A stretch of DNA of 28,587 nt from a virus: positions 1-28,587 of IMG/VR virus record IMGVR_UViG_3300017779_000107; one strand, 5' to 3'. The notes under the pieces are model-generated. The model did not search any database. It was not told where the DNA came from and saw only the letters and a list, made by a program, of their open reading frames with translations. The position numbers and the translations under genes are program-made. Shown one piece after another: positions 1 through 27,928 of the stretch (positions are counted from its first letter, which is position 1; the number at the start of each line of letters is the position of its first letter).

Positions 1-52
1 ATGTTCTTTGATGTGATTTATGTTTGCTTTTATTCAAGTCTAACTTAGCCAT
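1..52 (-). CDS. Start of an unidentified gene, cut by the window edge
   Basis: An ATG at 52..50 opens a frame that runs to the window edge without a stop and reads MAKLDLNKSKHKSHQRT. A purine-rich AGGG lies about 9 nt upstream of the ATG as a plausible ribosome binding site. The start follows directly after the terminator that closes the M15 peptidase gene, so this would be the first gene of the next unit. Only 17 codons are visible and the family cannot be recognised. The N-terminus is basic and hydrophilic with no signal peptide. Confidence 0.5.
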   Translation of the reverse strand, partial: MAKLDLNKSKHKSHQRT

Positions 53-65
53 ATTTATTCCCTAC

Positions 66-100
66 AAAAAATTAACAGTTCCTTATTTCTAAAGAACTGT
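66..100 (-). terminator. Rho-independent terminator after the M15 peptidase gene
   Basis: On the minus strand an 11-bp stem, ACAGTTCTTTA paired with TAAGGAACTGT (one G-T wobble), closes a GAAA tetraloop. It is followed by TAATTTTTT. It starts 7 nt after the stop of the upstream gene and has the form of a strong intrinsic terminator. Confidence 0.85.
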
Positions 101-106
101 CTTTCT

Positions 107-1273
107 TTAGTCAATATCTAAACCAAATAATTCAAATTCACTTCTAAGCTCTTGTTCCAGTTGTGCAGCAACCTCTGGATTATTTTTGGCTTTCTTAATA
201 AGCCTAGCATTCTTAGATCTAAAGCGAGAAATAATCACTCTCTTCTTCTGATCCATAGCAATCTTTTGTGCTTCTGCTTGTTCTCTTCTGTTTTTGAGGA
301 AACGTCTAAATCCGTAGATACCGCCAATAATCAAAGCCGCAAGTGCAGTAAGGCCACCGATAGTGCCTAAAGATGCAGAGGATCCTGTACCAAGATCTTT
401 TCCTTGGCCTTTAATGTTAATAATATACTTCTCAATGTTAGAGTTGGACATTAAAGCACCTTGACCCCTAAAACCAGTATTAGAATCAAGGATTGGATTA
501 ACACTTTTAATAACACCACCAACAATTTGTTCTTGTTTGTATATTGGTTCTCCTTTTAAATCTCCGTTTTCTCTATATAACGGTAACGCTGTTCTCAAAC
601 CATCCATATCACACAAACAAGAGGCTAAAATCCAACTTGGCGTAACAGGCTTACCTTTAACGGTAAGATTCCAAGAGGAATATACGTAGCCCATAAAACC
701 ATTTTGGCGTGTGTCGAAATGAAATTGACTTCCACCAAACCCTATTCCTCTAAACCCAGCCTTAAGTGCTTGAACAACAATATCTTGTAATGCTCGAATA
801 GAATCTGCATTCCAATTTCCATCATGCTTAATATCAACAGCCTGACCTTTTAGGTGATATGAATCATCGATACCACCAGCAAGAATGTTAGTTACGGGTG
901 GTCGGTAAGCCCATCTAGTCGATCCATCCTCTTGTGCTCTAGAAGAAGAAATCATATGTTTTCTAAAAACTTGAGACTGCATAACCTTTTGCAAAGCTCT
1001 TGCTGTCTTGCTTTCAAGATAAACACCATCACCAAAGTCTTCTAACTCTTTCTGGTAAACTTCTCTTGCTGGTTTGCCTGAAAAATCATTTCTATCAATC
1101 CAGTTTAATGATTCACCTCCCTTCGGTGCAGGATCTGGATCTGGATCTTTAAGAACGCCAACTTCACCACTAGGCAAAACACCTGCAGCCATCATACCGT
1201 CAGGAATACCCCAACCAGAAACTTTAGTGATATTTTCAATAAGTCTTTGTTTTGCTTTTTCTTTATTAGACAT
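107..1273 (-). CDS. Peptidase M15-like protein with C-terminal membrane anchor
   Basis: The 388-aa protein carries a zinc D-Ala-D-Ala peptidase (M15-type) signature. SYHLKGQAVDI at about residues 138-148 supplies His140 and Asp147, and FHFDTR at about 184-189 supplies His185, matching the SxHxxGxAxD...H.D pattern. Such enzymes cut peptidoglycan cross-links or stem peptides and often serve as phage endolysins or virion lysins. A single hydrophobic, glycine-rich helix lies at about 300-321, followed by RRFLKNRR and a basic, probably coiled tail to 388. By the positive-inside rule the tail would be cytoplasmic and the enzyme domain periplasmic, yet no N-terminal signal peptide is visible. Residues 42-52 are a DPDPDPAP linker. 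A GGAG ribosome binding site precedes the ATG, and the gene lies between two terminators with a late-promoter-like element upstream. Its role (lysis, virion entry or maturation) is inferred; the fold call is fairly firm. Confidence 0.75.
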   Translation of the reverse strand: MSNKEKAKQRLIENITKVSGWGIPDGMMAAGVLPSGEVGVLKDPDPDPAPKGGESLNWIDRNDFSGKPAREVYQKELEDFGDGVYLESKTARALQKVMQSQVFRKHMISSSRAQEDGSTRWAYRPPVTNILAGGIDDSYHLKGQAVDIKHDGNWNADSIRALQDIVVQALKAGFRGIGFGGSQFHFDTRQNGFMGYVYSSWNLTVKGKPVTPSWILASCLCDMDGLRTALPLYRENGDLKGEPIYKQEQIVGGVIKSVNPILDSNTGFRGQGALMSNSNIEKYIINIKGQGKDLGTGSSASLGTIGGLTALAALIIGGIYGFRRFLKNRREQAEAQKIAMDQKKRVIISRFRSKNARLIKKAKNNPEVAAQLEQELRSEFELFGLDID

Positions 1274-1287
1274 TTTGTTCTCCGATT

Positions 1288-1320
1288 AAAAAAAAATAGT
1301 GGCAGAGTATGCCACTATTT
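1288..1320 (-). terminator. Rho-independent terminator after the lipoprotein gene
   Basis: On the minus strand AAATAGTGGCA pairs with TGCCACTATTT (11 bp) around the 5-nt loop TACTC, and a run of T follows. It lies just after the lipoprotein stop at 1329 and before the peptidase start at 1273. A GATAAATA element overlaps the beginning of the hairpin. Confidence 0.85.
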
Positions 1321-1323
1321 ATC
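1316..1323 (-). promoter_or_regulatory. Possible late promoter (GATAAATA) overlapping terminator
   Basis: GATAAATA differs by one base from the T4-type late -10 box TATAAATA. A T4-like start about 6 nt downstream would fall near 1310, at the top of the terminator hairpin. It would drive the M15 peptidase gene. The assignment rests on the motif and on the parallel arrangement before hsp20. Confidence 0.45.
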
Positions 1324-1328
1324 TATTT

Positions 1329-1670
1329 TTATTCGACAGTATCTGTCTCTTGGGTTTCTATAACCTCTCCAAGCATCTTAACTGCTTGTCGATTATGAAA
1401 CCCGATTATGGTAGCATAGCAGTCCATGACAGCCACCTTACCATACTTATTAACAAGTGCGTCATCTATGAGTAAAACTTCTTGATCGTCATCTCTGAGT
1501 TGATTTAGAAGTTCATGTTCCTCACGGAGTGAGATAGTTCTACAGATATCACCTCTAGTAGTATTCTCTGTAAGAACGCTTAGTGTTGCATAGTCACTCC
1601 CTCTCTTTGAAGTGACTGTGCAACCCGATATAAACAATGCCCCAAGGCCCAAAATAAAAATATTTTTCAT
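1329..1670 (-). CDS. Small lipoprotein of unknown function
   Basis: The 113-aa product begins MKNIFILGLGALFISGC, a short lipoprotein signal with an ISGC lipobox, so Cys17 is the likely acylated residue. The mature part of about 97 residues is soluble and acidic, with two further cysteines in TRGDICRT and VMDCYA. The start lies directly after the stop of the outer-membrane-type gene upstream, so the two are probably co-transcribed, and a terminator follows. No family is recognised. Its position between an outer-membrane-like protein and a peptidoglycan peptidase would suit an outer-membrane spanin or another envelope lipoprotein, but the sequence alone does not show this. Confidence 0.75.
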   Translation of the reverse strand: MKNIFILGLGALFISGCTVTSKRGSDYATLSVLTENTTRGDICRTISLREEHELLNQLRDDDQEVLLIDDALVNKYGKVAVMDCYATIIGFHNRQAVKMLGEVIETQETDTVE

Positions 1671-1671
1671 A

Positions 1672-2265
1672 TTAGAAACTAAAGCCTACGCCAAGTTGCA
1701 TTCCGCCTTGGCCAATATCCCAAGAATCATTAACAGCCCAGACATAGCCAAGATCAACATGAGCGCCAGAACCAAGCTCATGCTTGTAACCTACACCAAT
1801 TTCTCCACCTACGATTTCGTAGCCAAAGCCACCATCAAAATCGAGGTCAATGTTACCACCTACGGAAACATACTCACCACCGATGATACCCGGAGTAGCT
1901 GTAATCGTAGGATTAAAAGACAAGTCGCCCCAAGTGTTCGTATCACCCCAGCCAATCATGTCTGTAGTAGTGTTATTCCAAGAGTAAGATACGTTAGTAT
2001 CAAGGCTTACTACAGAGAGATCAACAACAGCACCACCACTTACGGAGTACGAATTTGTTGTACCGTCAGAATAAGTAAATTCTGCGTATGTTTCTTGGTT
2101 AAAGGCTGTAACCCCTGTACCAACAGTAAGGTCAACATCGCCATCCAAGTTAGATGTAATGCCTACGTAAGAGTCTGCAAATACAGACGGTTGAGCAGCC
2201 TCTTGTGCTACGGCAACACCAGTTGTCGCAAATACAGCAAGAGCAGAAACGAGTAATTTATTCAT
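1672..2265 (-). CDS. Outer-membrane beta-barrel-like protein
   Basis: The 197-aa protein has a clear signal peptide (MNKLLVSALAVFATTGVAVA, cleavage before QEAAQ). The mature part has many alternating polar and hydrophobic beta-strand stretches with Gly, Asp, Thr and aromatic residues, and it ends in GVGFSF with a terminal phenylalanine. That end is the usual signal for outer-membrane barrel assembly by BamA. Repeated glycine-rich strands such as GGEIGVGYKH and GAHVDLGYVW fit a small eight-stranded barrel. The gene has a strong AGGAGG ribosome binding site 6 nt before the ATG and its own late promoter element at 2292-2299, so it is probably made late. What a phage does with it (receptor masking, lysis, membrane change) is unknown. 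Its resemblance to bacterial porin-like proteins suggests acquisition from a host. Confidence 0.75.
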   Translation of the reverse strand: MNKLLVSALAVFATTGVAVAQEAAQPSVFADSYVGITSNLDGDVDLTVGTGVTAFNQETYAEFTYSDGTTNSYSVSGGAVVDLSVVSLDTNVSYSWNNTTTDMIGWGDTNTWGDLSFNPTITATPGIIGGEYVSVGGNIDLDFDGGFGYEIVGGEIGVGYKHELGSGAHVDLGYVWAVNDSWDIGQGGMQLGVGFSF

Positions 2266-2291
2266 AATTACCTCCTAAAAAGTTAATGTAC

Positions 2292-2299
2292 TATTTATA
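2292..2299 (-). promoter_or_regulatory. T4-type late promoter TATAAATA for the barrel protein gene
   Basis: A perfect TATAAATA lies 27-34 nt upstream of the ATG at 2265. In T4 this box alone defines late promoters read by gp55-RNA polymerase with the gp45 clamp; both gp55 and gp45 are encoded in this window. The leader would be only about 20 nt and includes the AGGAGG site. Confidence 0.75.
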
Positions 2300-2335
2300 C
2301 AAATAGTAAACTTTAATGTCCACATGGGGAAATGA

Positions 2336-2498
2336 ATCGGGCGGGGGATAACTTTCCCCCTTCTGTTTCTAGGCTTCCCGAAATAAGCCCACTCCGTTAT
2401 GCTGCTAGAGCTACGGAAGGTCTTTTATAGTTATTTGCAACTATGGTTTCGTCCCCTCAGACAAGCTACTGACTACCAGTCGATCCTAATTCACCCCC
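2336..2498 (-). ncRNA. ssrA: tmRNA coding piece (tag-encoding RNA)
   Basis: It begins GGGGGTGAATTAGGATCGAC, the 5' acceptor strand followed by the D-loop-like motif of alpha-type tmRNA. The tag frame starts after CATAGTT, close to the TAGTC-GCA context of E. coli tmRNA. A helix 5-like stem forms between CTTCCGT and ACGGAG around the end of the tag. Next comes an H-type pseudoknot: GGGCTT (2390-2385) pairs with AAGCCT (2376-2371), and the loop bases TCGGG (2381-2377) pair with CCCGA (2341-2337). A GGGGG/CCCCC hairpin (2365-2343 region) sits inside it. The 3' end is set by this last pairing and is approximate. Confidence 0.88.
2397..2438 (-). other. tmRNA proteolysis-tag reading frame
   Basis: From the resume codon GCA at 2438 the frame reads ANNYKRPSVALAA and stops with TAA. 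The A-N beginning and the ALAA end are the hallmarks of SsrA tags; the end is what ClpXP and related proteases recognise. With the alanine carried by the tmRNA itself, the added tag would be A-ANNYKRPSVALAA. The central KRPSV is more basic than most known tags. Confidence 0.88.
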
Positions 2499-2503
2499 AT
2501 CAT

Positions 2504-2523
2504 AAACATACCTTGGTATGTTT
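2504..2523 (-). other. Linker hairpin between the two tmRNA pieces
   Basis: AAACATAC and GTATGTTT form a perfect 8-bp stem with loop CAAG. It lies in the 26-nt segment between the acceptor CCA (2525) and the coding-piece 5' G (2498). In permuted tmRNA precursors this segment is removed by processing (RNase P at the coding 5' end and trimming at the CCA end). The hairpin would bring the two ends of the acceptor stem together for that. Confidence 0.75.
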
Positions 2524-2524
2524 G

Positions 2525-2587
2525 TGGTGGAGGTGAGGGGATTTGCACCCCTGTCCTGAATAGATTTTGTCGAGTCCTCATCGAAGA
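2525..2587 (-). ncRNA. ssrA: tmRNA acceptor piece
   Basis: The 3' end is CACCTCC-A-CCA with CCA encoded. Upstream of it is a T-arm with 5-bp stem AGGGG/CCCCT (2552-2548 and 2540-2536) and 7-nt loop TGCAAAT. TTCAGGAC just before the T-arm pairs with the coding piece (helix 2). The 5' end is not marked in the sequence. It is placed at the start expected for the late promoter at 2594-2601 and may be trimmed further. Confidence 0.88.
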
Positions 2588-2593
2588 CAATTT

Positions 2594-2601
2594 TATTTAT
2601 A
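2594..2601 (-). promoter_or_regulatory. T4-type late promoter TATAAATA for the tmRNA
   Basis: A perfect TATAAATA overlaps the stop codon of the upstream secreted-protein gene. A start about 6 nt downstream would fall near 2588-2587, just before the acceptor piece. This places the tmRNA under late phage control, with possible read-through from the fibre genes upstream. Confidence 0.7.
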
Positions 2602-3025
2602 AAGGAGTTATCTCAGAACTGTCAACAGGAGGTTCTAGAGAATATATATCGAAAGCTTCATCAAGAATTAAAAAGTCGTCTTTATTCTCTATAACTATGT
2701 AATTGAAATAATCACAACCATATTTGTCTATTACAGAATTGACTGACTGATCTATAGCAATAGCTGAAGTTTTTAGAAATGATTTTGCTTGCTCTAAAGA
2801 CCAGTCTTGCTCATCCATTATAAAGTCTGCTGCACCCCTTACAATAAATGCAAACATATCTTCATCTATTGTCCCACATTTTCTATCATAACCTACATAT
2901 AATACTGCAGAATTATAGAAGTCGTGAAGAAAGTCTTGTTGCTGTATCTCTTTAGCATGAGCAAGAGAAGAGAACAACAAAATTGTAGGTAATACTATCC
3001 TCTTCAATAATTTAATCAATAACAT
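2597..3025 (-). CDS. Secreted hypothetical protein (signal peptide)
   Basis: The 142-aa product starts with two lysines and an arginine, then a hydrophobic core (IVLPTILLFSS) and LAHA before KE, a typical Sec signal peptide cleaved after about residue 24. The mature domain of about 118 residues is acidic, mainly helical in appearance, and contains two cysteines (Cys50 in RKCGTI and Cys104 in KYGCDY) that could form a disulfide in the periplasm. The start follows the stop of a 20-codon ORF within 4 nt, so translation may be coupled. The stop codon overlaps the tmRNA promoter. No family is recognised. Grouping with the lipoprotein, barrel protein and peptidase suggests an envelope role, for example lysis control or exclusion of other phages, but this is only context. 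Confidence 0.7.
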   Translation of the reverse strand: MLLIKLLKRIVLPTILLFSSLAHAKEIQQQDFLHDFYNSAVLYVGYDRKCGTIDEDMFAFIVRGAADFIMDEQDWSLEQAKSFLKTSAIAIDQSVNSVIDKYGCDYFNYIVIENKDDFLILDEAFDIYSLEPPVDSSEITPL

Positions 3026-3028
3026 ATA

Positions 3029-3091
3029 CTACTCCGTAAGTGGCGTACTAACTGAGGCTGCAATAGACGATCCAGAAATTGTTGTTGGCAT
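3029..3091 (-). CDS. 20-aa mini-ORF with strong ribosome binding site
   Basis: The frame MPTTISGSSIAASVSTPLTE is preceded by AAGGAGG 6 nt before its ATG, one of the best such sites in the window. It ends 3 nt before the secreted-protein start. The peptide resembles the first residues of phage fibre proteins (the TTISGSS type), so it may be the stump of a lost fibre gene. It may also serve as a leader that loads ribosomes onto the next gene. Confidence 0.5.
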   Translation of the reverse strand: MPTTISGSSIAASVSTPLTE

Positions 3092-3118
3092 AAATCCTCC
3101 TTAAGTTGGCTCTATATT

Positions 3119-3820
3119 CTATACTGCATTGATAATAAAGAAGTGCTGTCCCTGTCTACCAGCATCATTAGTGCTAATGGTTGTAGATACAAATGCGTCA
3201 CCAGCAGAAGCTAACTTATATGCGTAATCCATTTGGTCCGTACTGCTTAGAGGTTCACCGTCTACATGCACCCATCCAGCACTCGGCGAGAATGTAGGTG
3301 TAGGGTTTTGAATACTGCTTGAGAGTGTTCGTCCAGTCAGGAAGTACATGTAGATTCTACCACCTACTGCTGGATCATCTGCTACAGTAGTAATACTATC
3401 AGAAAGAGTAGATGGTCCTTCAGATGATTGGAACTGTTCGGTTGTAACAGTTGTAATTGGACTGTCAGGTCTAAATGCTACCACTATTCCAGCACCAGTA
3501 TCAGCAACATCCCATGTAACAGTCCAAGACGATGTTGTTCCATCATATATGATATAATAAGAACCACCAGCAGGATATTCAGCCAGATTGTCATTATCTC
3601 CAATTAGAGTCCATCCAGCAGGTGCTCCTGTAATAACGTCATCATCATCAGTAAAGCTAGTAAGAATTAAAAGATCACCAGCAATAGCACCAGCCGGAGG
3701 TGTAAATGTTCTTGTGGTTGCGTTAGCAGTGTTTCTTTGATAGGAAGCAGCAATGTGTGTAAATGCTGTAGTAACAGAAGCACCACCATATGTTGCAATT
3801 AAAGTCTGAACGATTGTCAT
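3119..3820 (-). CDS. Fibre-associated or virion structural protein
   Basis: The 233-aa protein is rich in Thr, Ser, Gly and Ala and looks all-beta. After a short N-terminal part it contains TFTPPAGAIAGDLLI (about residues 38-52), GAPAGWTLIGD and YYIIYDGTTSSWTVTWD. This pattern recurs in virion surface and fibre-associated proteins of tailed phages and is predicted to form a jelly-roll-like domain. The ATG overlaps the stop of the preceding fibre gene by 1 nt (TAATG). Codon use and composition match the fibre genes. A virion location is likely by context; the exact role is not recognised. Confidence 0.6.
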   Translation of the reverse strand: MTIVQTLIATYGGASVTTAFTHIAASYQRNTANATTRTFTPPAGAIAGDLLILTSFTDDDDVITGAPAGWTLIGDNDNLAEYPAGGSYYIIYDGTTSSWTVTWDVADTGAGIVVAFRPDSPITTVTTEQFQSSEGPSTLSDSITTVADDPAVGGRIYMYFLTGRTLSSSIQNPTPTFSPSAGWVHVDGEPLSSTDQMDYAYKLASAGDAFVSTTISTNDAGRQGQHFFIINAV

Positions 3821-4326
3821 TAAGAAAGCCCTGCACCAGATATGGCATAAACATTTGTATCAACACAAAGTGCAGTTGCTAATCCTCTCTGTGCAAGAGT
3901 TCTGCTTCCAGTATCTGCTGTTCCTGCACTATACAAAGTGATACCAGTAGCCGTTATTGTAATATCAGACCCAGAGTTGTTGAAAATGGTCACAGCATCA
4001 CCACTAGAAAAGCCTGTACTGGCATTAATGGTCACAGTTCCAGTAACTTTAAGATGCTTTCCGATATCGGCAGTTGTTACTGTTGTGCTAGTAGTTTGAG
4101 GAATAGCTCTTACATCTGAAAAAAAACTTTCAGATTGCAGATAATTATTAGATGAAAATGTTCCAGTCAGATAATTATTAGAAACATTACCTGTACCGAA
4201 GCCTTGGGCTTGGATGTAATTGTTAGAAGTAAGATTTCCTAAATTTATAGCACTATTATCAGCAGCAGCCGGAACTTTAATATCATTGTATCCTGACGTA
4301 TCACCATATAACCTTAAAGTGGACAT
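3820..4326 (-). CDS. Short fibre-like protein with SNNY repeats
   Basis: The 168-aa protein has three SNNY-type repeats in its first half (SNNYIQAQGF, SNNYLTGTF, SNNYLQSESF, residues about 34-70), the repeat shared with the long fibre proteins upstream. The C-terminal half (about 71-168) is a Thr- and Gly-rich beta domain with VTGTVTINASTGFSSGD and TLAQRGLATALCVDTNVYAI, typical of fibre cap domains. A late promoter lies 29 nt upstream of the ATG, so this gene starts its own late unit with the gene behind it. It is probably a minor fibre or a shortened paralogue of the long fibres. Confidence 0.65.
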   Translation of the reverse strand: MSTLRLYGDTSGYNDIKVPAAADNSAINLGNLTSNNYIQAQGFGTGNVSNNYLTGTFSSNNYLQSESFFSDVRAIPQTTSTTVTTADIGKHLKVTGTVTINASTGFSSGDAVTIFNNSGSDITITATGITLYSAGTADTGSRTLAQRGLATALCVDTNVYAISGAGLS

Positions 4327-4354
4327 TATCTTACCCTATAAATTTAGTTTTAAT

Positions 4355-4362
4355 TATTTATA
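4355..4362 (-). promoter_or_regulatory. T4-type late promoter TATAAATA for the short fibre gene
   Basis: A perfect TATAAATA in the 38-nt gap between two genes, 29-36 nt upstream of the ATG at 4326. The expected start is near 4349. Confidence 0.7.
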
Positions 4363-4364
4363 TC

Positions 4365-5123
4365 TTAGTCATACTTCTTCTTCTTATGAGCGTATGTTCT
4401 ATACCAATTGGAGAAAACAGAACGAAACCTTGTTTCTCTAATGGTCTCATTTTCAACACTCTCACTACCACACTCCATAACCCACTCATCTCTTTTGAAT
4501 GGAATAACTTGAACAATTGGAGTTCCTTTTTTTAAGAGTACTTGAGGCTCTTTATTATCCTTCCAGATAAATGGAAAATTAATGATATGCATATCGTCTG
4601 TGTCAACTACAGCCGGAAGAACTTCAAACGGAAGATCGTGATAAGCAGGAGGTCTAAAGTAACATGAATATCCTCTAGGAGTTTTTATTCTCCAAGGGTT
4701 ATTAAACTTAAAGATATCTCCATTGCTGGCACCTGCCTTAAGAGAAGGCGATCCTTCAAATTGAGATACGGGATGTCTGCCAAACAAATCAAAATTTGTA
4801 TCAGACCAATCAAAACCAATACCTTCCATATTGCTATTTATTTTGTGATTGGTAGCAATTACATCGCATTGTAGTAGAAGAGCGTACCCTGCTGTCATAA
4901 CATCTCTTACAGGGACACAGGTTTTTATTGTCCTAGTATCAACAGCTTGTCCAGAATCCATATCGTAATACTTAGATAATTTTTTAGGATTTTTTTCAGA
5001 CGTAACGTGATTCATCATATGTTTATACCAATCCGGAACTATTTTTTTCATAGGAACCGGATGCGGTGCAGAATGTTTAAGTTCTTCAGGGAAGATCTTA
5101 AACTCAATTTTCTTTTGCGTCAT
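4365..5123 (-). CDS. Conserved phage hypothetical protein (possibly DUF6065-like)
   Basis: The 252-aa protein has no signal peptide or membrane segment. Recognisable stretches are VPDWYKHM near the N-terminus, TIKTCVPVRDVMTAGYALLLQCD (about 65-87), a Phe/Pro/Gly-rich middle (FNNPWRIKTPRGYSCYF) and KKGTPIVQVIPFKRD (about 199-213). The combination of an N-terminal PxWYK, a central KxCxPxxDxxxxGY and a late GTPIxQxIPF is what I recall from a family of unknown function common in marine phages, but I cannot verify the family number. It lies between fibre-region genes, 6 nt after its upstream neighbour's stop. Function unknown. Confidence 0.65.
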   Translation of the reverse strand: MTQKKIEFKIFPEELKHSAPHPVPMKKIVPDWYKHMMNHVTSEKNPKKLSKYYDMDSGQAVDTRTIKTCVPVRDVMTAGYALLLQCDVIATNHKINSNMEGIGFDWSDTNFDLFGRHPVSQFEGSPSLKAGASNGDIFKFNNPWRIKTPRGYSCYFRPPAYHDLPFEVLPAVVDTDDMHIINFPFIWKDNKEPQVLLKKGTPIVQVIPFKRDEWVMECGSESVENETIRETRFRSVFSNWYRTYAHKKKKYD

Positions 5124-5129
5124 AATATT

Positions 5130-5453
5130 CTATTCGTCCTCAAACGACAGTTTAGTCTGGTCTCCGATTATTTTAGGCTGTTTTTTAACAACCTCAGTCA
5201 AAAGCATTTCTTGATTTTCTTTGTTTGCTTTAACAACTTCATTTCTAAAACTCTCAACTGCAGCACCAGTTTGTCTTTGTTGTTGAGAGTTCTCGATCAT
5301 TAAAACTGGCATCCATGCCATAGCACAACCCCAGTCATCTACTTCTTGTCCAGTATTAGGATTTGTCCCTCTAAGCTGCACGTACCAAGAACAATCATGT
5401 TCTTTACATGGTCGAAATCCTCTTAGGGGACAGTTTGATTTCACTTTGGTCAT
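5130..5453 (-). CDS. Conserved cysteine-containing phage protein
   Basis: The 107-aa protein has four cysteines in its first 43 residues (CPLRGFRPCKEHDC, then DDWGC), a spacing that could bind a metal. A highly patterned segment follows (AMAWMPVLMIENSQQQRQTG), then an amphipathic, probably helical C-terminus ending in FEDE. Proteins with this layout occur in many unrelated tailed phages as conserved hypotheticals. It lies just after the fibre chaperone-like gene, with 2 nt between stop and start. Metal binding is an inference from Cys spacing. Confidence 0.65.
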   Translation of the reverse strand: MTKVKSNCPLRGFRPCKEHDCSWYVQLRGTNPNTGQEVDDWGCAMAWMPVLMIENSQQQRQTGAAVESFRNEVVKANKENQEMLLTEVVKKQPKIIGDQTKLSFEDE

Positions 5454-5455
5454 TA

Positions 5456-6007
5456 TTAACCTCTAAGATCCTCTTCGCTTAAACCTGTAGGCTGATTCAT
5501 AGAATTCGTTGATGGCTCAATAACCAAATCAGAAGATGGGGGAGTCGGCCAGTTGTCATAGTTATATACACCGCCAAAAGGATACCCCACAGCAGCAGAA
5601 AGATCTCTAAGACTCTGGCGATATGTTTTCCATGCTGTCTTTTGAGTGCTTGTAAATGGCGTATCTGAAAGAACTATCCAGTCTGTCTGAATAAGCAAAC
5701 TGTCCCTTGTTGATTTAACATTTTGCAAAATCTCTGCGTCAGAATATGCAGAAGGATTCATCAAGGAATTTTTATGGTCTGTATGTAAAGCTACACACTG
5801 ATTCACATAAGAGGGAAGCTCTGAAATCTGTTCGTTCATAGAGCCGTCACTGAATTCAATCTCACCGGATGTTCCGTTCCATTGAACAACACGTACATTG
5901 GTAGGAAATTCAACACTAGAAAAATCTAGTTCGGTAAAAACCATTCCATCATTGATTATTGTTCCATCTTCAACGATCAAAGTAACTCTATTTCTATCTA
6001 TTGACAT
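5456..6007 (-). CDS. Tail fibre assembly chaperone-like protein
   Basis: The 183-aa protein contains, at about residues 100-138, the pattern RDSLLIQTDWIVLSD...W..YRQSLRDL. This is the core of the tail-fibre assembly-chaperone (Phage_tail_APC-type) domain found at the end of many phage fibre operons. The first 60 residues are a small beta-rich domain (VEDGTIINDGMVF, VRVVQWNGTSGEIEFSD), and a proline-rich tail with GYPFGGVYNYDNWP follows the motif. Its place directly after the three fibre-tip paralogues supports a role in folding, trimerising or mounting them. Its first 8 codons are duplicated in a vestige just upstream (6012-6083). Confidence 0.7.
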   Translation of the reverse strand: MSIDRNRVTLIVEDGTIINDGMVFTELDFSSVEFPTNVRVVQWNGTSGEIEFSDGSMNEQISELPSYVNQCVALHTDHKNSLMNPSAYSDAEILQNVKSTRDSLLIQTDWIVLSDTPFTSTQKTAWKTYRQSLRDLSAAVGYPFGGVYNYDNWPTPPSSDLVIEPSTNSMNQPTGLSEEDLRG

Positions 6008-20595: not shown

Positions 20596-20957
20596 ACCCC
20601 ACCTTCATCATACATTTCTTTCAGCACATCTAATTGTTCTTTCGACAACAGTTTCATTACCTGCTTTGTTTTATGCTGATTATATTTATATATTTTAGAT
20701 ACTAGCCTTTCATCTTCTGTGAAATTATTTTTAGGCCAAGGTGTAAACCTTTTTCTTTTCCTGACAGAATTAAAAAGATAAGAGTAATGTCTGTTATTTG
20801 GTATCTCAGGTCTCATGTTCATTTCGTTAGAGAACAAGATTGTATCAGGATACAAAGAGAAAGCCTTGTTTACAATGTAAGCATCATATTCTGACCCTGT
20901 TTCTTCAACAGGGTCATTTTCGACAGAAATATTTTTCACATAGTCGAAGAGCTTCAC
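20592..20957 (-). CDS. 62: Clamp loader small subunit (T4 gp62)
   Basis: gp62 joins four gp44 subunits to open and load the gp45 clamp. The start chosen is GTG at 20957, which overlaps the gp44 stop as GTGA and gives MKLFDYVKN, 121 aa. A longer frame from 20993 would overlap gp44 by 40 nt. The protein is much shorter than T4 gp62 (187 aa) but has YDAYIVNKAFSLYPDTILFSNEMN and YLFNSVRKRKRFTPW, the form seen in marine T4-like phages. Assignment rests on these stretches plus the 45-44-62-regA order. Confidence 0.88.
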   Translation of the reverse strand: MKLFDYVKNISVENDPVEETGSEYDAYIVNKAFSLYPDTILFSNEMNMRPEIPNNRHYSYLFNSVRKRKRFTPWPKNNFTEDERLVSKIYKYNQHKTKQVMKLLSKEQLDVLKEMYDEGGV

Positions 20958-21892
20958 TTGAACATACACCCCGCCATAATCTCTGTTAAACACGCTGTCA
21001 CGTTGATATCAGGGTTCGCCACAAAAGCTTGCTTGTACTGATAATCTGCAAGAATCAAAACAAGCTGTGCAATCGAAGCTTTCTCAAGGTAGTCAACAGA
21101 CATTGTATAGATATTTGAGAACAGTGTGTCGGGATGAATGTCGTTGTTATGCGAAACCCACTTACGAACTTCCGTGAAGTTCTTTTCTTTTAGATATTTG
21201 AACAGTTGACTGTATGCTTCGTCAAAGGAACTAACGACATCTGCACTAAGCTCTCCTGTCGATGAATAATACTGAACCTCATTTAAGATTTTCCTGAAGT
21301 CTGGAAAGTGCTTTTCGAGAAGCAAAACTAGAGTCTTCTTGTCGTATTCTACACCTTCAGACTCAAGAATACTCTTAAGACCTTTGAAGAATTGACTTGC
21401 AATCTGTGGTTTTTCATCCTTTGAGATTTTAAACTCTACGTGAGAGCATCTTGACCTTAAAGGCTGTAAGATTTTGTTAACGTAGTTACAAGTTAGGATA
21501 AATCCACAGTTCTTTGAAAACTCTTCCATAAAGTTTCGGAGAGCAGGTTGTGTTGAGTTTGGATTAAGATAGTCAGCCTCGTCAAGTATGACATACTTCC
21601 TACCGCCTGTCATCGAAACTGCAGAAGCAAACTGTTTAATCTTCACCCTCAAAGTATCAATGTTCCCATCTAGGGAACCGTTGATCACAATATAATCACA
21701 ACCCAACTCATCCAACATGGCTTTGGCAACTGTAGTTTTACCACAGCCAGAAGAACCAGAAAATATCAGGTTTGGTAGATTCCCTTTGTCTACAAACCTT
21801 TGCAGCTTCTCTTTGATACTTTCTGGTAAAACAACATCTTGCACTCTTTTGGGACGATATTTCTCAGCCCAAATACAATCATCAACAATCAC
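20954..21892 (-). CDS. 44: Clamp loader ATPase subunit (T4 gp44)
   Basis: This AAA+ ATPase loads the sliding clamp at primer ends. The 312-aa protein (T4: 319) has WAEKYRPKRVQDVVLP at the N-terminus (RFC box), Walker A GSSGCGKTT (46-54), Walker B VILDEADYLN (101-110) and the SRC motif (147-149) with the arginine finger. The C-terminal collar contains YLKEKNFTEVRKWVSHN. It starts with GTG overlapping the gp45 stop by GTGA. Confidence 0.96.
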   Translation of the reverse strand: MIVDDCIWAEKYRPKRVQDVVLPESIKEKLQRFVDKGNLPNLIFSGSSGCGKTTVAKAMLDELGCDYIVINGSLDGNIDTLRVKIKQFASAVSMTGGRKYVILDEADYLNPNSTQPALRNFMEEFSKNCGFILTCNYVNKILQPLRSRCSHVEFKISKDEKPQIASQFFKGLKSILESEGVEYDKKTLVLLLEKHFPDFRKILNEVQYYSSTGELSADVVSSFDEAYSQLFKYLKEKNFTEVRKWVSHNNDIHPDTLFSNIYTMSVDYLEKASIAQLVLILADYQYKQAFVANPDINVTACLTEIMAGCMFK

Positions 21893-22557
21893 ACGTCACC
21901 TCGTACACTGACAGCATAAGTCACAGGAATCTGCTTTGCCTTGAAGACACCAAAGGGAGAATTAGGATCCAAACATACATCATAGTCCCCGTCCATAAGC
22001 TTTAAGCTATCAAACGAAAATGTAATAGGTCCGCTATTTTCTTGATCTGTCGTAGTGATAACTGTTGTCCAGTCGTCAATCGTGCCATTGTCCATATCAA
22101 TTGCTCTGGCAATGATCTTGCCGTCAGTACACTCAAATTGAACTTCAGGCATATCCAAAAGAGCAGCAGCTTTACGTAAAACAACCACATCATTTTTAGT
22201 CATTGCAAAGTTCAATGACCCGGAAAAAGAAGTTACGTTAGTGGGATCCACTTTTTTGTGAATAATCATACTCTTATCAGCATACTGATAATTTACACTA
22301 TGTTTTCCTGAACTAATCTCAACAGACTTGTCGCCAAAATCAAATTCAGGATCAGGCATCATGGAAACAATGTTAAGAAATCTTGACAATTCATAAATGC
22401 CAAAAGGCTTGTCAAAAAATTCATCTACCTCCACAAATGCAAAAACATTATTATAGGGAGATGTAGTCTGGATCAAAGACCCAGACTCCACGTAAACAGA
22501 AGGGTTGATAGTTGAAAAGTTTTTCAACACATCAAACGTTTCCTTATGTATTTTCAT
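21889..22557 (-). CDS. 45: Sliding clamp (T4 gp45)
   Basis: gp45 is the trimeric processivity ring and, in T4, the activator of late transcription with gp55. The 222-aa protein (T4: 228) begins MKIHKETFDVLKNFSTINPSV, which matches the T4 start MKLSKDTTALLKNFATIN closely. This sets the start at the ATG at 22557 rather than the GTG one codon earlier. Further features are the FAFVEVDEFFDKPFGIYEL strand region and the domain 2 stretch ITFSFDSLKLMDGDYDV. The ATG overlaps the upstream stop (TGATG). Confidence 0.95.
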   Translation of the reverse strand: MKIHKETFDVLKNFSTINPSVYVESGSLIQTTSPYNNVFAFVEVDEFFDKPFGIYELSRFLNIVSMMPDPEFDFGDKSVEISSGKHSVNYQYADKSMIIHKKVDPTNVTSFSGSLNFAMTKNDVVVLRKAAALLDMPEVQFECTDGKIIARAIDMDNGTIDDWTTVITTTDQENSGPITFSFDSLKLMDGDYDVCLDPNSPFGVFKAKQIPVTYAVSVRGDV

Positions 22558-23405
22558 CACTTTTTCATCTTCTTAAGCTGGTTCATATCTGCTGTGGCAA
22601 CAGCACCAATCTGCGCCAATGCTCCAAGACTACCACCAAAGATATATGAACCGCAATGCTTAAGTTCCATCCAAGGACACAGCCAGACTTTCATTCCAGC
22701 TTTACGTGTATTGTAACAAAACATATAATCTTCTGATAGGTATCTCTTAGATTCAGGATCAATAATACAATCAAAGTAAGCCATAATCTCTCTAGAACCA
22801 TCGAAGTTTGCGGTTCTGACATGATCAGGCTTGTACTTATATTCGGGATAGATCTGGTCATACTTTTCAAATGTTTCACGACGAATCATCATAAAACCAG
22901 TACCAGCTTCACCAACTTCAACAGGCTCATTAACCGGAACAGCTTTTTGTCCTGCTACCGGATTAAAAACATAATCGCCCACAAACTGTTCAAGCGTATT
23001 TGGATCATCATCAGCTACACCTTGATCAACTGCCATCTTGATCTTTTCCCATGAGATGTTCTTTTTTGGATATGCTCCAGCAATAATGTCATATTCAGAT
23101 TCTTCATCTTGCAAAGCCATAAGTGCAAGCACGTCTTTAGGATTAAATCCAATGTCCGAGTCAATAAACATAAGGTGCGAGAAACCAGATCTGATAAACT
23201 CATCAACACAATAGTTTCTAGCTCTTGTAATTAAAGACTCGTTGAAAAGGTAATAAAATCGAATCTCGATATTATATTTTGCACAAACAGCGGCTAAGTC
23301 TGCTGTAGATCTAGCAAACATGCCGTGACATTGACCACCATACATAGGTGTTGCTACAAACAGTTTCCTTTTCTGTAATTCCTCAATAGAAATTTCAGTT
23401 TTCAT
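22557..23405 (-). CDS. Glycosyltransferase-like protein (GT-A fold)
   Basis: The 282-aa protein has the marks of a family 2-type GT-A enzyme: an N-terminal strand (KLFVATPMYGG), SLITRARNYCVDEFIRSG, the metal-binding DxD in LMFIDSDIGF (Asp82, Asp84), AGAYPKKNISW and EAGTGFMMIRRETFEKY (about 166-182). The segments EDYMFCYNTRKAGMKVWLCP and ELKHCGSYIFGG include the late acidic and histidine residues. Substrate is not evident; modified DNA bases, virion proteins or cell-surface sugars are all possible. It sits between the dUTPase-like gene and the clamp gene 45, where related marine phages also carry such a gene as far as I recall. An ACGAGG site precedes the ATG. Confidence 0.72.
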   Translation of the reverse strand: MKTEISIEELQKRKLFVATPMYGGQCHGMFARSTADLAAVCAKYNIEIRFYYLFNESLITRARNYCVDEFIRSGFSHLMFIDSDIGFNPKDVLALMALQDEESEYDIIAGAYPKKNISWEKIKMAVDQGVADDDPNTLEQFVGDYVFNPVAGQKAVPVNEPVEVGEAGTGFMMIRRETFEKYDQIYPEYKYKPDHVRTANFDGSREIMAYFDCIIDPESKRYLSEDYMFCYNTRKAGMKVWLCPWMELKHCGSYIFGGSLGALAQIGAVATADMNQLKKMKK

Positions 23406-23900: not shown

Positions 23901-24174
23901 TTTTACTTTCCTCTTCAAAAGTGTATATCATCAATATAATATAATGTATTGCTTTTAACAGATCTTTTTTGTTTTTACCATCTTTTTTTCCATATCTAAG
24001 CAAATATTTTAAAGAATTATCTCTAGCAGTCATTTCAAGTGTACCTAGAGCTTCCCAAACATCAACAGCTTGCATATCGGTTTTCTTGCTTTTGTAATGC
24101 TGGCTATATGTTGACTCAATATACTCTTCAATCTCGAATAGAATTTCATTTTCTTTGTATTTGAATTTAGTCAT
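23884..24174 (-). CDS. DUF3310-like small protein
   Basis: The 96-aa protein has HYKSKKTDMQAVDVWEAL in its first half and NSLKYLLRYGKKDGKNKKDL with LLKAIHYIILMI in its second. This is the HYK...DV.EA...N..KYL.RYG.K....DL.KA..YI pattern of DUF3310 phage proteins, some of which are annotated as nucleotide-kinase-like without firm proof. It overlaps the deformylase-like gene upstream by 4 nt and the dUTPase-like gene downstream, so it belongs to the nucleotide-metabolism cluster by position. Confidence 0.7.
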   Translation of the reverse strand: MTKFKYKENEILFEIEEYIESTYSQHYKSKKTDMQAVDVWEALGTLEMTARDNSLKYLLRYGKKDGKNKKDLLKAIHYIILMIYTFEEESKNASAS

Positions 24175-24668
24175 TTTTGGCCCGACATCTTCTTTCTGTT
24201 CTTAAGAGCTTGCTGTCTATGATAAGACGTAGCCTTATTGTAGAACACCTGACCGTTGATGTTGTCAATATGATGAAGAAGATTTCTTGCAGTCAAACCT
24301 ACAAATTTTTCTACGTTAAATTCACCATTGATGTCCTGAAATCTAACTCTGACGCCAGAAGGTCTTTTAATCTTACAAACAACATCACTTCTAGTTATAT
24401 CGGTTTCATCCAAATATATATCCTCACCAAATGTAGTCGTAATAACAGGATTGAACATTGCAAAGATTGGATCTGTATCTAAAACAATAACTCTAGAATT
24501 TAAACCAATTTCATTCGCAGACAAAGCCAGTATTTTATGTTTTCTTATAACACCGATCATGTCGGTAGCTAGTTGTTTAGGATTTTCAACAGGATTTTTA
24601 AAATCAAATGGGTCTAACTTAGTTGTTAGAATATCATCTTTAGAATCAACAAGCTCTCTATCTTCCAT
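24171..24668 (-). CDS. Peptide deformylase-like protein, active site degenerate
   Basis: Peptide deformylase removes the formyl group from new proteins and uses Cys, two His and a Glu around a metal. The 165-aa protein keeps the fold markers: LALSANEIGLNSRVIVLD (motif I region, 47-64), MFNPVI (71-76) and ARNLLHHIDNINGQVF (motif III region, 127-142). The key residues have changed: motif I Gln is Glu53, the motif II EGCLS is replaced by EDIYLDE with no Cys, and HExDH reads HHIDN (Glu to His133, His to Asn136). Only His132 of the metal set remains. It is probably not an active deformylase. ATG overlaps the gp46 stop (TAATG). Confidence 0.78.
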   Translation of the reverse strand: MEDRELVDSKDDILTTKLDPFDFKNPVENPKQLATDMIGVIRKHKILALSANEIGLNSRVIVLDTDPIFAMFNPVITTTFGEDIYLDETDITRSDVVCKIKRPSGVRVRFQDINGEFNVEKFVGLTARNLLHHIDNINGQVFYNKATSYHRQQALKNRKKMSGQK

Positions 24669-26380: not shown

Positions 26381-27435
26381 TATTCTGCATTCATTGCCTT
26401 GTAGTAGATGTCGTGAATCTTGTTTTTGAGTTTATCAAGATCCACGTCAGTTTCAATCATGTCAACATATCTATCCATGATCTCTCTGGTGTTTTCAATA
26501 TTGTCTAAATCTACATCCGAACTTCTCTCTTGGTAGATCATTGTCTCATCGACAATCTTAACCTCAAGAGGAGAAAAAGACTCTAGTTCACCGATGAAGC
26601 TGTCAAACTGTTCAACGTCAACCTTTTCCTTAACAACAACACGAACATAGTGGTCTTTTACGTCTGCCTCTTTAGCAGACTTCTTGTACTTTCCAGAACC
26701 GTCTACAACGTACTTCGTGTAGATGTCGTATGGATTCTCAACAAAAGTCAGTTCCAATGTCTCTGTGTCCAAAACATGAAACCCTTTGACATAACCATAG
26801 TCAGACCAATTCATCTGGTACGGACAACCAAGATAGTATATTCCGTTGCTGTCCGATCTGTGATGAAAATGTCCAGATAAAGTTTTTTCAAACTTTTTGA
26901 AAACAGAGGCACTCAGACCTTCTTTGCTGAGTTGTCCCGGATGCATCGTAAATCCTTCGATTTCAAGATGACCGATACACAAACGAGACTCAGAAAGCTT
27001 CAACATATCCATGCTTTGTTTGTGGTTGTCGTTACAAATCCAAGGAAGATACAGAGCCGTAACACCAAAAAGATCTACTTCCTCTGGGTCTTTGTAGAAG
27101 TTAATATTATTATAACGTCTGACAACTTCGTCAATAGCATTGATCTGATTAGTATTCTTGTAGAATGTGTCATGATTGCCAACAATAATATCCATCTCCA
27201 TACCCATTTCTTCTAGAGGCTGAAGAAATGTCTTCCTGAGATTATGTGCTGTCAGAAAGTTGATATACTTTCTACGATCAACAACATCTCCAAGATGCAC
27301 AACCTTGTCTATTTTGTTTTTCTTTAGGTAAGGAAAAAATACCTTATCAAAAAATTTTTCAAAATAGTTGTAGTAGTTAACATTATCATTTCTAACACCA
27401 TAATGTGTATCGGCAATCAAAACAATCTTAGCCAT
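26380..27435 (-). CDS. 47: Recombination nuclease subunit (T4 gp47, Mre11/SbcD-like)
   Basis: This is the metal-dependent nuclease partner of gp46. The 351-aa protein (T4: 339) has the full metallophosphatase set: IADTHYG (Asp8, His10 region), VHLGDVVDRR (46-55), VGNHD (85-89), CIGHLEIEG and SGHFHHRSD. The C-terminal region has PLEVKIVDE and RYVDMIETD as capping or gp46-binding segments. Its ATG overlaps the gp55 end by 8 nt. Confidence 0.96.
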   Translation of the reverse strand: MAKIVLIADTHYGVRNDNVNYYNYFEKFFDKVFFPYLKKNKIDKVVHLGDVVDRRKYINFLTAHNLRKTFLQPLEEMGMEMDIIVGNHDTFYKNTNQINAIDEVVRRYNNINFYKDPEEVDLFGVTALYLPWICNDNHKQSMDMLKLSESRLCIGHLEIEGFTMHPGQLSKEGLSASVFKKFEKTLSGHFHHRSDSNGIYYLGCPYQMNWSDYGYVKGFHVLDTETLELTFVENPYDIYTKYVVDGSGKYKKSAKEADVKDHYVRVVVKEKVDVEQFDSFIGELESFSPLEVKIVDETMIYQERSSDVDLDNIENTREIMDRYVDMIETDVDLDKLKNKIHDIYYKAMNAE

Positions 27436-27928
27436 TCTTTTCGTCGTGCTTCTTCTCTAGCTCGTCCATGTAATCATTTTGTATATACGTATCTGCATAC
27501 GGAAGCGTGGCCTTGTCAGAAAGTGAGTAGTCCACAAGCTCCTGATTTACGTATTTGTAATCATAGTACTTTTTCTTAATAAGGAGAAGCTTTTTCTCTT
27601 TCTCGATCTTCCTAATAAACGCATTCCAGATGATCTGTGTGAAATAAGCAAAAGGATTGCTTCCCTTAGCAGGATCAAACTTCATAACGGCTTCGAACGC
27701 ATTTTCAATACCATCACCAATCATGTCCTCTTTAAAAATATACCCAGAGTAATTTGGTTTGGTGGCCAATCGAGTTGCAATTGTCTGTAAACAAATAGCA
27801 ATGTCGTTAGAAATAATCGGTCTTTCTTCACCGAGCTTATCAGCATCATAACACTCTTTCTGATGCTCGACTAGCCTGAGATAAAACGTCTTATTGTCGA
27901 TGTAATTTACTGGTGTTTTCTTTTTCAT
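27428..27928 (-). CDS. 55: Late-transcription sigma factor (T4 gp55)
   Basis: gp55 is the small sigma-like factor that directs host RNA polymerase to TATAAATA late promoters, assisted by gp45. The 166-aa protein (T4: 185) has the region-2-like segment from about residue 62 to 112: YIFKEDMIGDGIENAFEAVMKFDPAKGSN, then PFAYFTQIIWNAFIRKIEKEKK. The C-terminus, acidic then EKKHDEKNG, may carry the clamp-binding end, though the clear hydrophobic tail of T4 gp55 is not obvious. ATG overlaps the uvsW stop (ATGA). Its targets are visible in this window at 2292, 2594, 4355 and 20163. Confidence 0.94.
   Translation of the reverse strand: MKKKTPVNYIDNKTFYLRLVEHQKECYDADKLGEERPIISNDIAICLQTIATRLATKPNYSGYIFKEDMIGDGIENAFEAVMKFDPAKGSNPFAYFTQIIWNAFIRKIEKEKKLLLIKKKYYDYKYVNQELVDYSLSDKATLPYADTYIQNDYMDELEKKHDEKNG

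Follow-up and report, generated by a model that had tools for sequence, protein, structure and literature searches.

The gap between two open reading frames (ORFs) of a marine phage sequence raises the question of whether it encodes a ribosome-rescue RNA and, if so, how a phage would express and use it. The window, i.e. the whole stretch of DNA analysed, is a 28.6-kb virus record of a marine T4-like phage (28,587 nt; IMG/VR record IMGVR_UViG_3300017779_000107). An earlier note, made from the letters alone, had proposed that this gap holds a phage-encoded, circularly permuted two-piece tmRNA.

Identity and genomic context of the tmRNA gene

The minus strand at 2588-2337 was assigned to a circularly permuted tmRNA gene with both Rfam models and ARAGORN. 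The tmRNA_permuted model (RF04321) matched 2581-2397 with 94.2 bits (E 2.6e-17; cut-off 47), the alpha_tmRNA model (RF01849) matched 2629-2351 with 63.8 bits (cut-off 50), and ARAGORN called a tmRNA* with the tag ANNYKRPSVALAA. The fold of the precursor lay 3.6 standard deviations beyond those of its shuffles (z-score -3.6), none of the 200 shuffles being as good. The gene is on the coding strand, between ORFs 2597-3025 and 1672-2265, and has the permuted order, as the CCA (2527-2525) comes before the acceptor 5' strand (2498-2492) with a linker between them. At the level of sequence, the proposal of a real, phage-encoded, alphaproteobacterial-type, two-piece tmRNA was confirmed, with scores well above the cut-offs of the permuted Rfam models, and the tRNA-like part together with these scores points to an alphaproteobacterial origin. 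The earlier note had credited phages with one-piece tmRNAs only; this is outdated, as 53 two-piece tmRNAs, 50 of them marine or aquatic, were reported in sequenced phages in 2022 (PMC9004378), and the window's tmRNA thus belongs to a group already described. Permuted tmRNAs are also abundant in IMG/VR.

The other genes of the window include those for a DNA polymerase, UvsX, a replicative helicase, a sliding clamp and its loader, a RegA-like translation repressor, gp46/47-like nucleases and the late sigma factor gp55. SmpB was found neither in the fragment, in agreement with the earlier note, nor in five relatives (four of 116-243 kb), and must therefore come from the host. ORF 2597-3025 had no Pfam, PHROG or phage match, and ORF 1672-2265, which follows the tmRNA and whose product has a signal peptide and is barrel-like, had no Pfam or PHROGs match. 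An endolysin-like M15-type peptidase, probably with a membrane segment at its C terminus, is encoded at 107-1273, downstream of the tmRNA. ORF 24171-24668 resembles, by eye, a peptide deformylase, and in phage Melnitz an annotated peptide deformylase follows gp46, matching the place of this ORF.

Relatives among viral sequences

As BLAST searches of the window's tmRNA against named phages gave no match, relatives were reached by sequence patterns and homologous queries. A strict pattern retrieved at least 120 stretches in IMG/VR, and the pattern with the window's own acceptor type retrieved 52 stretches, compared with 22 bacterial genomes. The searches yielded one close relative, L122 (97.6% over a 500-nt region, 93.5 bits), whose differences from the window leave the tag and the modelled stems intact, and among the matches listed the window's version of the tmRNA occurred in two contigs only. 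ARAGORN found a tmRNA in 66 of 122 records and missed L122; the standard finder misses many phage tmRNAs.

Permuted tmRNAs were annotated in Melnitz and present without annotation in Roseobacter phage DSS3P8, Rhodobacter phages RcSimone-Hastad and RcRudolph, and Caulobacter phage CcrBL9. In DSS3P8 (L224), a GOLLD RNA (843-1276) lies directly upstream of the tmRNA (1447-1833). In RcRudolph (L226, 1160-1495), the 'hypothetical protein' RCRUDOLPH_61 covers the tmRNA (1207-1495), and this gene is probably false.

Anatomy of the two pieces

The encoded CCA, acceptor pairing, T-arm, split helix 2, GGATCGAC motif, 13-codon tag and linker hairpin that had been described from the sequence were all recovered (Table 1). 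The 5' end was moved from 2587 to 2588, which is better placed.

Table 1. Features of the tmRNA gene, its promoter and the T4-type transcription and replication genes of the window, with the basis of each assignment.
Feature	Positions	Strand	Basis or remark
-35 box TTGACA, sigma70 type	2620-2625	-	read directly; within end of upstream ORF; conserved in L122
Putative T4-type late promoter octamer TATAAATA, doubling as -10 TATAAA	2594-2601	-	exact match
Predicted transcription start, 5' end of acceptor piece	2588	-	6 nt past the octamer's last base
5' hairpin of acceptor piece, GUCUUC-GAU-GAGGAC	2574-2588	-	folded; same place as 5' hairpin of the alpha_tmRNA model
Split helix 2, 3' strand: TCGACAA (2573-2567) and CTATTCAG (2563-2556)	2556-2573	-	model alignment, hand-outlined
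T-arm, 5 bp and 7-nt loop	2536-2552	-	model match, homologue comparison
Acceptor 3' strand CACCUCC and ACCA end (CCA 2527-2525)	2525-2535	-	model match, homologue comparison
Linker hairpin AAACATACC/GGTATGTTT (2523-2515/2512-2504), intervening segment	2499-2524	-	folding
Acceptor 5' strand GGGGGUG, start of coding piece	2492-2498	-	model match, homologue comparison
GGATCGAC motif (D-loop analogue)	2479-2486	-	read directly; model match
Split helix 2, 5' strand: CTGGTAG (2479-2473) and CTTGTCTGAG (2465-2456)	2456-2479	-	folding; alternative pairings exist
Stretch where pseudoknot 1 would lie	2439-2455	-	too short to form pseudoknot 1
Tag frame ANNYKRPSVALAA and UAA: 13 codons (2438-2400), TAA (2399-2397)	2397-2438	-	ARAGORN; identical in L122
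Helix 5	2418-2413/2397-2392	-	
Pseudoknot 2 candidate: conserved (U)AGAAACAGAA loop, extra GGGGGA/UCCCCC hairpin	2337-2390	-	stem 1 folded
Second composite promoter TGGACA-N17-TATAAATA, for next gene 1672-2265	2292-2322	-	conserved in L122
gp44-like clamp loader	20954-21892	-	phrog_168, E 1.5e-108
gp45-like sliding clamp	21889-22560	-	phrog_223, E 1e-46
gp55-like late sigma factor	27428-27928	-	phrog_234, E 3.9e-44

All seven acceptor pairs (2498-2492 with 2535-2529) form in the window, the third being G-U, an identity element for alanyl-tRNA synthetase (AlaRS). Among the matches listed, the 7-bp acceptor was formed in all 119 unique viral homologues, across which compensated pair exchanges were observed in both the acceptor and the T-arm. 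Acceptor pairs 5 and 6 each occurred as four pair types with no mismatch (n = 119), and pairs 1-4 carry no weight because the search pattern fixed them. The viral linkers fold at -5.5 kcal/mol compared with -1.9 kcal/mol for shuffles, and the linker hairpin of the window (2524-2499) would be removed on maturation.

Helix 2 of the window was drawn from the pairing of its two strands and from the alignment to the model, and its 3' strand is only partly present in the minimum-energy fold. As unconstrained duplexes over the whole set, matched strands (-11.9 kcal/mol) were only slightly better than swapped (-10.7) or shuffled ones (-11.3), so that this comparison is not proof of the helix. When the register was fixed, the 27-nt class lacking pseudoknot 1 (PK1) showed exchanges at two pairs, and mismatches too.

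The resume codon is at 2438 and the tag ends in AA (ALAA) before the stop codon. A tag was present in 115 of 120 viral tmRNAs among the matches listed, the other five being cut off at or near the sequence end; acceptor pairing and tag frame were thus both conserved in homologous phages, as expected from the earlier reading. The window's tag differs from those of the sampled relatives. Candidate tag-less decoy tmRNAs among the relatives were rejected, the cases being tagged compact PK1-less forms or end-cut sequences. Unusually long tags of 28-34 residues were found in seven viral records (L037, L042, L047, L057, L066, L078, L096), some of them with AASA or SLAV at the end in place of LAA.

Pseudoknots

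The lack of room for PK1 had escaped the earlier note. The distance from the GAC to the resume codon is 40 nt in the window, compared with 61-98 nt in 39 bacterial permuted tmRNAs, and is therefore too short for PK1. Spacings below 60 nt were found in 24 of 115 viral tmRNAs among the matches listed and in none of the 39 bacterial ones sampled. They fall into length classes of 26-29, 37, 40, 44, 53 and 59 nt, and helix 2 of the shortest class stops just short of the resume codon. As RF04321 does not model PK1, which is usual in alphaproteobacteria, this pseudoknot is not required for membership; an older comparison (PMC1168896) found few cases of its loss. Since a PK1-less Escherichia coli tmRNA was reported to tag proteins, going by the title of Wower 2009 (cited in PMC4236655), the window's PK1-less form can plausibly work as well. 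PK1 loss in a phage tmRNA appears to be new.

The downstream pseudoknot of the earlier note was upheld in part: stem 1 of pseudoknot 2 (2389-2385/2376-2372) folds, and stem 2 (2381-2377/2341-2337), proposed by hand, makes the full structure possible. Position 2337 is the probable 3' end of the tmRNA.

A composite promoter at the tmRNA gene

Upstream of the tmRNA, TTGACA is followed after an 18-nt spacer by TATAAATA, one of six such octamers in the window, all on the coding strand. Transcription from T4 late promoters starts about 6 nt past the octamer, and this spacing places the start at about G2588, where the 5' hairpin begins. With TATAAATA just upstream of the predicted start and genes for gp55 and gp45 in the same genome, the latter being the late transcription activator in T4, the site would qualify as a T4-type late promoter. 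The octamer is that of T4 late promoters and is near the NATAAATA of T4-like cyanophages (PMC2984593).

Among the matches listed, the exact octamer preceded 74 of 123 unique viral permuted tmRNAs (missing in 40%), nearly always 58 or 64-71 nt before CTCCACCA; its chance rate is 0.048 per 250 nt, and a search window shifted 110 nt upstream contained zero exact octamers. A -35 box matching at 5 or more of 6 positions accompanied 67 of 84 tmRNA octamers, compared with 11 of 200 other octamers and 2% of random sites, counts that are not independent because the homologues share ancestry, so that Fisher values overstate independence. The usual spacer in homologues was 17 nt, and many relatives have TG upstream of the -10. 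When the -35 box served as independent anchor, TATAAATA was found in 56 of 84 cases. Promoters of the form TTGAC-N16-18-TATAA at tmRNA genes carried TATAAATA in 66 of 72 cases and TATAAT in 3, whereas those elsewhere in the same contigs carried TATAAATA in 3 of 75 and TATAAT in 56. The composite promoter occurred in 16 of 36 tmRNA clusters (80% identity) and spanned 21 upstream and 19 downstream flank clusters, and therefore travels with the tmRNA gene. It was not found in the sampled host tmRNAs (22 alphaproteobacterial and 22 Pelagibacterales sequences) or in the named non-Kyanoviridae isolates examined. A composite early/late promoter on a tmRNA was not found in print, within an incomplete coverage of the literature, and its presence on a phage tmRNA appears to be new.

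Four of 36 records, each of them large, gave a gp55-like match, and in three of these four contigs the tmRNA octamer is diverged or absent. An attempt to tie octamer loss to gp55 loss failed, most contigs being fragments. Five viral tmRNAs (L150, L156, L158, L171, L175) have tags ending in ADENLALAA and promoters of the TATAAT type, not TATAAATA; L150 lies within a 243-kb contig carrying a gp55-like gene. The gp55-like gene of a large tmRNA-carrying contig (G106 C1:30954-31445) has one in-frame TAG.

Proposed function and alternative explanations

The composite promoter of the window's alphaproteobacterial-type permuted tmRNA is probably used early and late, and the host-processed product probably serves ribosome rescue. 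Host RNA polymerase with sigma70 would start the gene early, and polymerase with gp55 and gp45 would start it late from the same place (~G2588), so that the tmRNA would be made throughout infection. Host RNase P and 3' exonucleases would excise the linker, the two pieces would stay paired via the acceptor stem and helix 2, and host AlaRS would charge the CCA end. Host SmpB and EF-Tu would then carry the tmRNA to ribosomes stuck on broken messages, and the stalled protein would be tagged and passed to ClpXP or a similar protease. Such rescue, in both early and late infection, would keep ribosomes usable while the messages of host and phage are being cleaved and the loss of the host chromosome takes the host tmRNA gene with it. 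The broader reading, in which marine T4-like phages maintain their own tmRNA lineage as a cassette under a two-mode promoter of its own, providing rescue over the whole infection, with PK1 shed in some members, is favoured only slightly.

As TATAAA is also a tolerable sigma70 -10 box, use of the octamer by gp55 does not necessarily follow, and the tmRNA could be real but expressed from an ordinary early promoter with an A-rich -10. The clear -35 box and the TG upstream of the -10 in many relatives fit this explanation, as does the view of the Melnitz authors, who called their promoter early from a sigma70 prediction and proposed that the phage tmRNA acts early, perhaps breaking down host proteins (PMC9004378). 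The location of TTGACA inside the upstream ORF and the 18-nt spacer also count against use in two modes. However, ordinary TTGAC promoters of the same contigs prefer TATAAT, the reverse of those at tmRNA genes, and TATAAATA is a documented late motif closely similar to that of the cyanophages, which makes an exclusively early promoter rather unlikely.

The unusual tag and the PK1-less form are also compatible with a decoy or retargeting RNA that competes with the host tmRNA or redirects rescued proteins through its altered tag, in favour of which an excerpted passage on coli can be cited (PMC11915505). This is improbable, as the ALAA end typical of degradation tags is kept, the resume codon is normal, and the title of Wower 2009 speaks for tagging without PK1. 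A host tmRNA gene acquired by chance and carried as a passenger, unused by the phage, would fit the tag unlike those of sampled relatives, the missing PK1 and the occurrence of this version in two contigs among the matches listed; but the viral homologues retain the acceptor and the tag frame, the gene has a promoter of phage type, the L122 differences spare the tag and modelled stems, and selection on structure across the relatives was already seen, so that this origin is very improbable.

In contrast to the early action proposed by the Melnitz authors, the conserved composite promoter points to a need for rescue throughout infection, virion protein production included. The predicted two-mode promoter can be tested directly in culture with Melnitz/H5P1, and natural PK1-less tmRNAs could show how small a part of the pseudoknot ring suffices for trans-translation.

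Comparison with known systems

Melnitz, a Methylophilales phage (PMC9004378), is like the window a T4-like marine phage with a permuted alphaproteobacterial-type tmRNA, and both share a gp55-gp47-gp46 gene block. Its tmRNA promoter, TTGACA-N17-TATAAATA, located 69 nt before CTCCACCA, is the same composite as that of the window, and in 98% of the Melnitz genome 2 of 25 octamers have a -35 box (that of the tmRNA and one other). Melnitz has a long linker, a longer spacing before the resume codon, the tag ANDNYVPVDYALAA and a predicted glutamine riboswitch, whereas in the window the linker is a short hairpin, PK1 has no room and the tag is ANNYKRPSVALAA; a search for a glnA-type glutamine riboswitch beside its tmRNA (positions 1-6000) gave no match even at E 5.

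With the alphaproteobacterial permuted tmRNAs (RF01849, RF04321), the window's tmRNA shares piece order, acceptor, T-arm, GGATCGAC, tag and pseudoknot 2 region, but it scores lower, lacks PK1 and has a late-type octamer in place of the bacterial promoter. The early/late logic has a precedent in phage RB49 and the cyanophages S-PM2 and Syn9, whose middle genes were proposed to have overlapping early and late promoters; there the two kinds of element occur together, as in the window, and are thought to give middle-mode expression (PMC2984593). In those phages the genes concerned are homologues of T4 middle genes, whereas in the window the elements are fused into one site that, in the sampled contigs and Melnitz, is nearly confined to the tmRNA gene.
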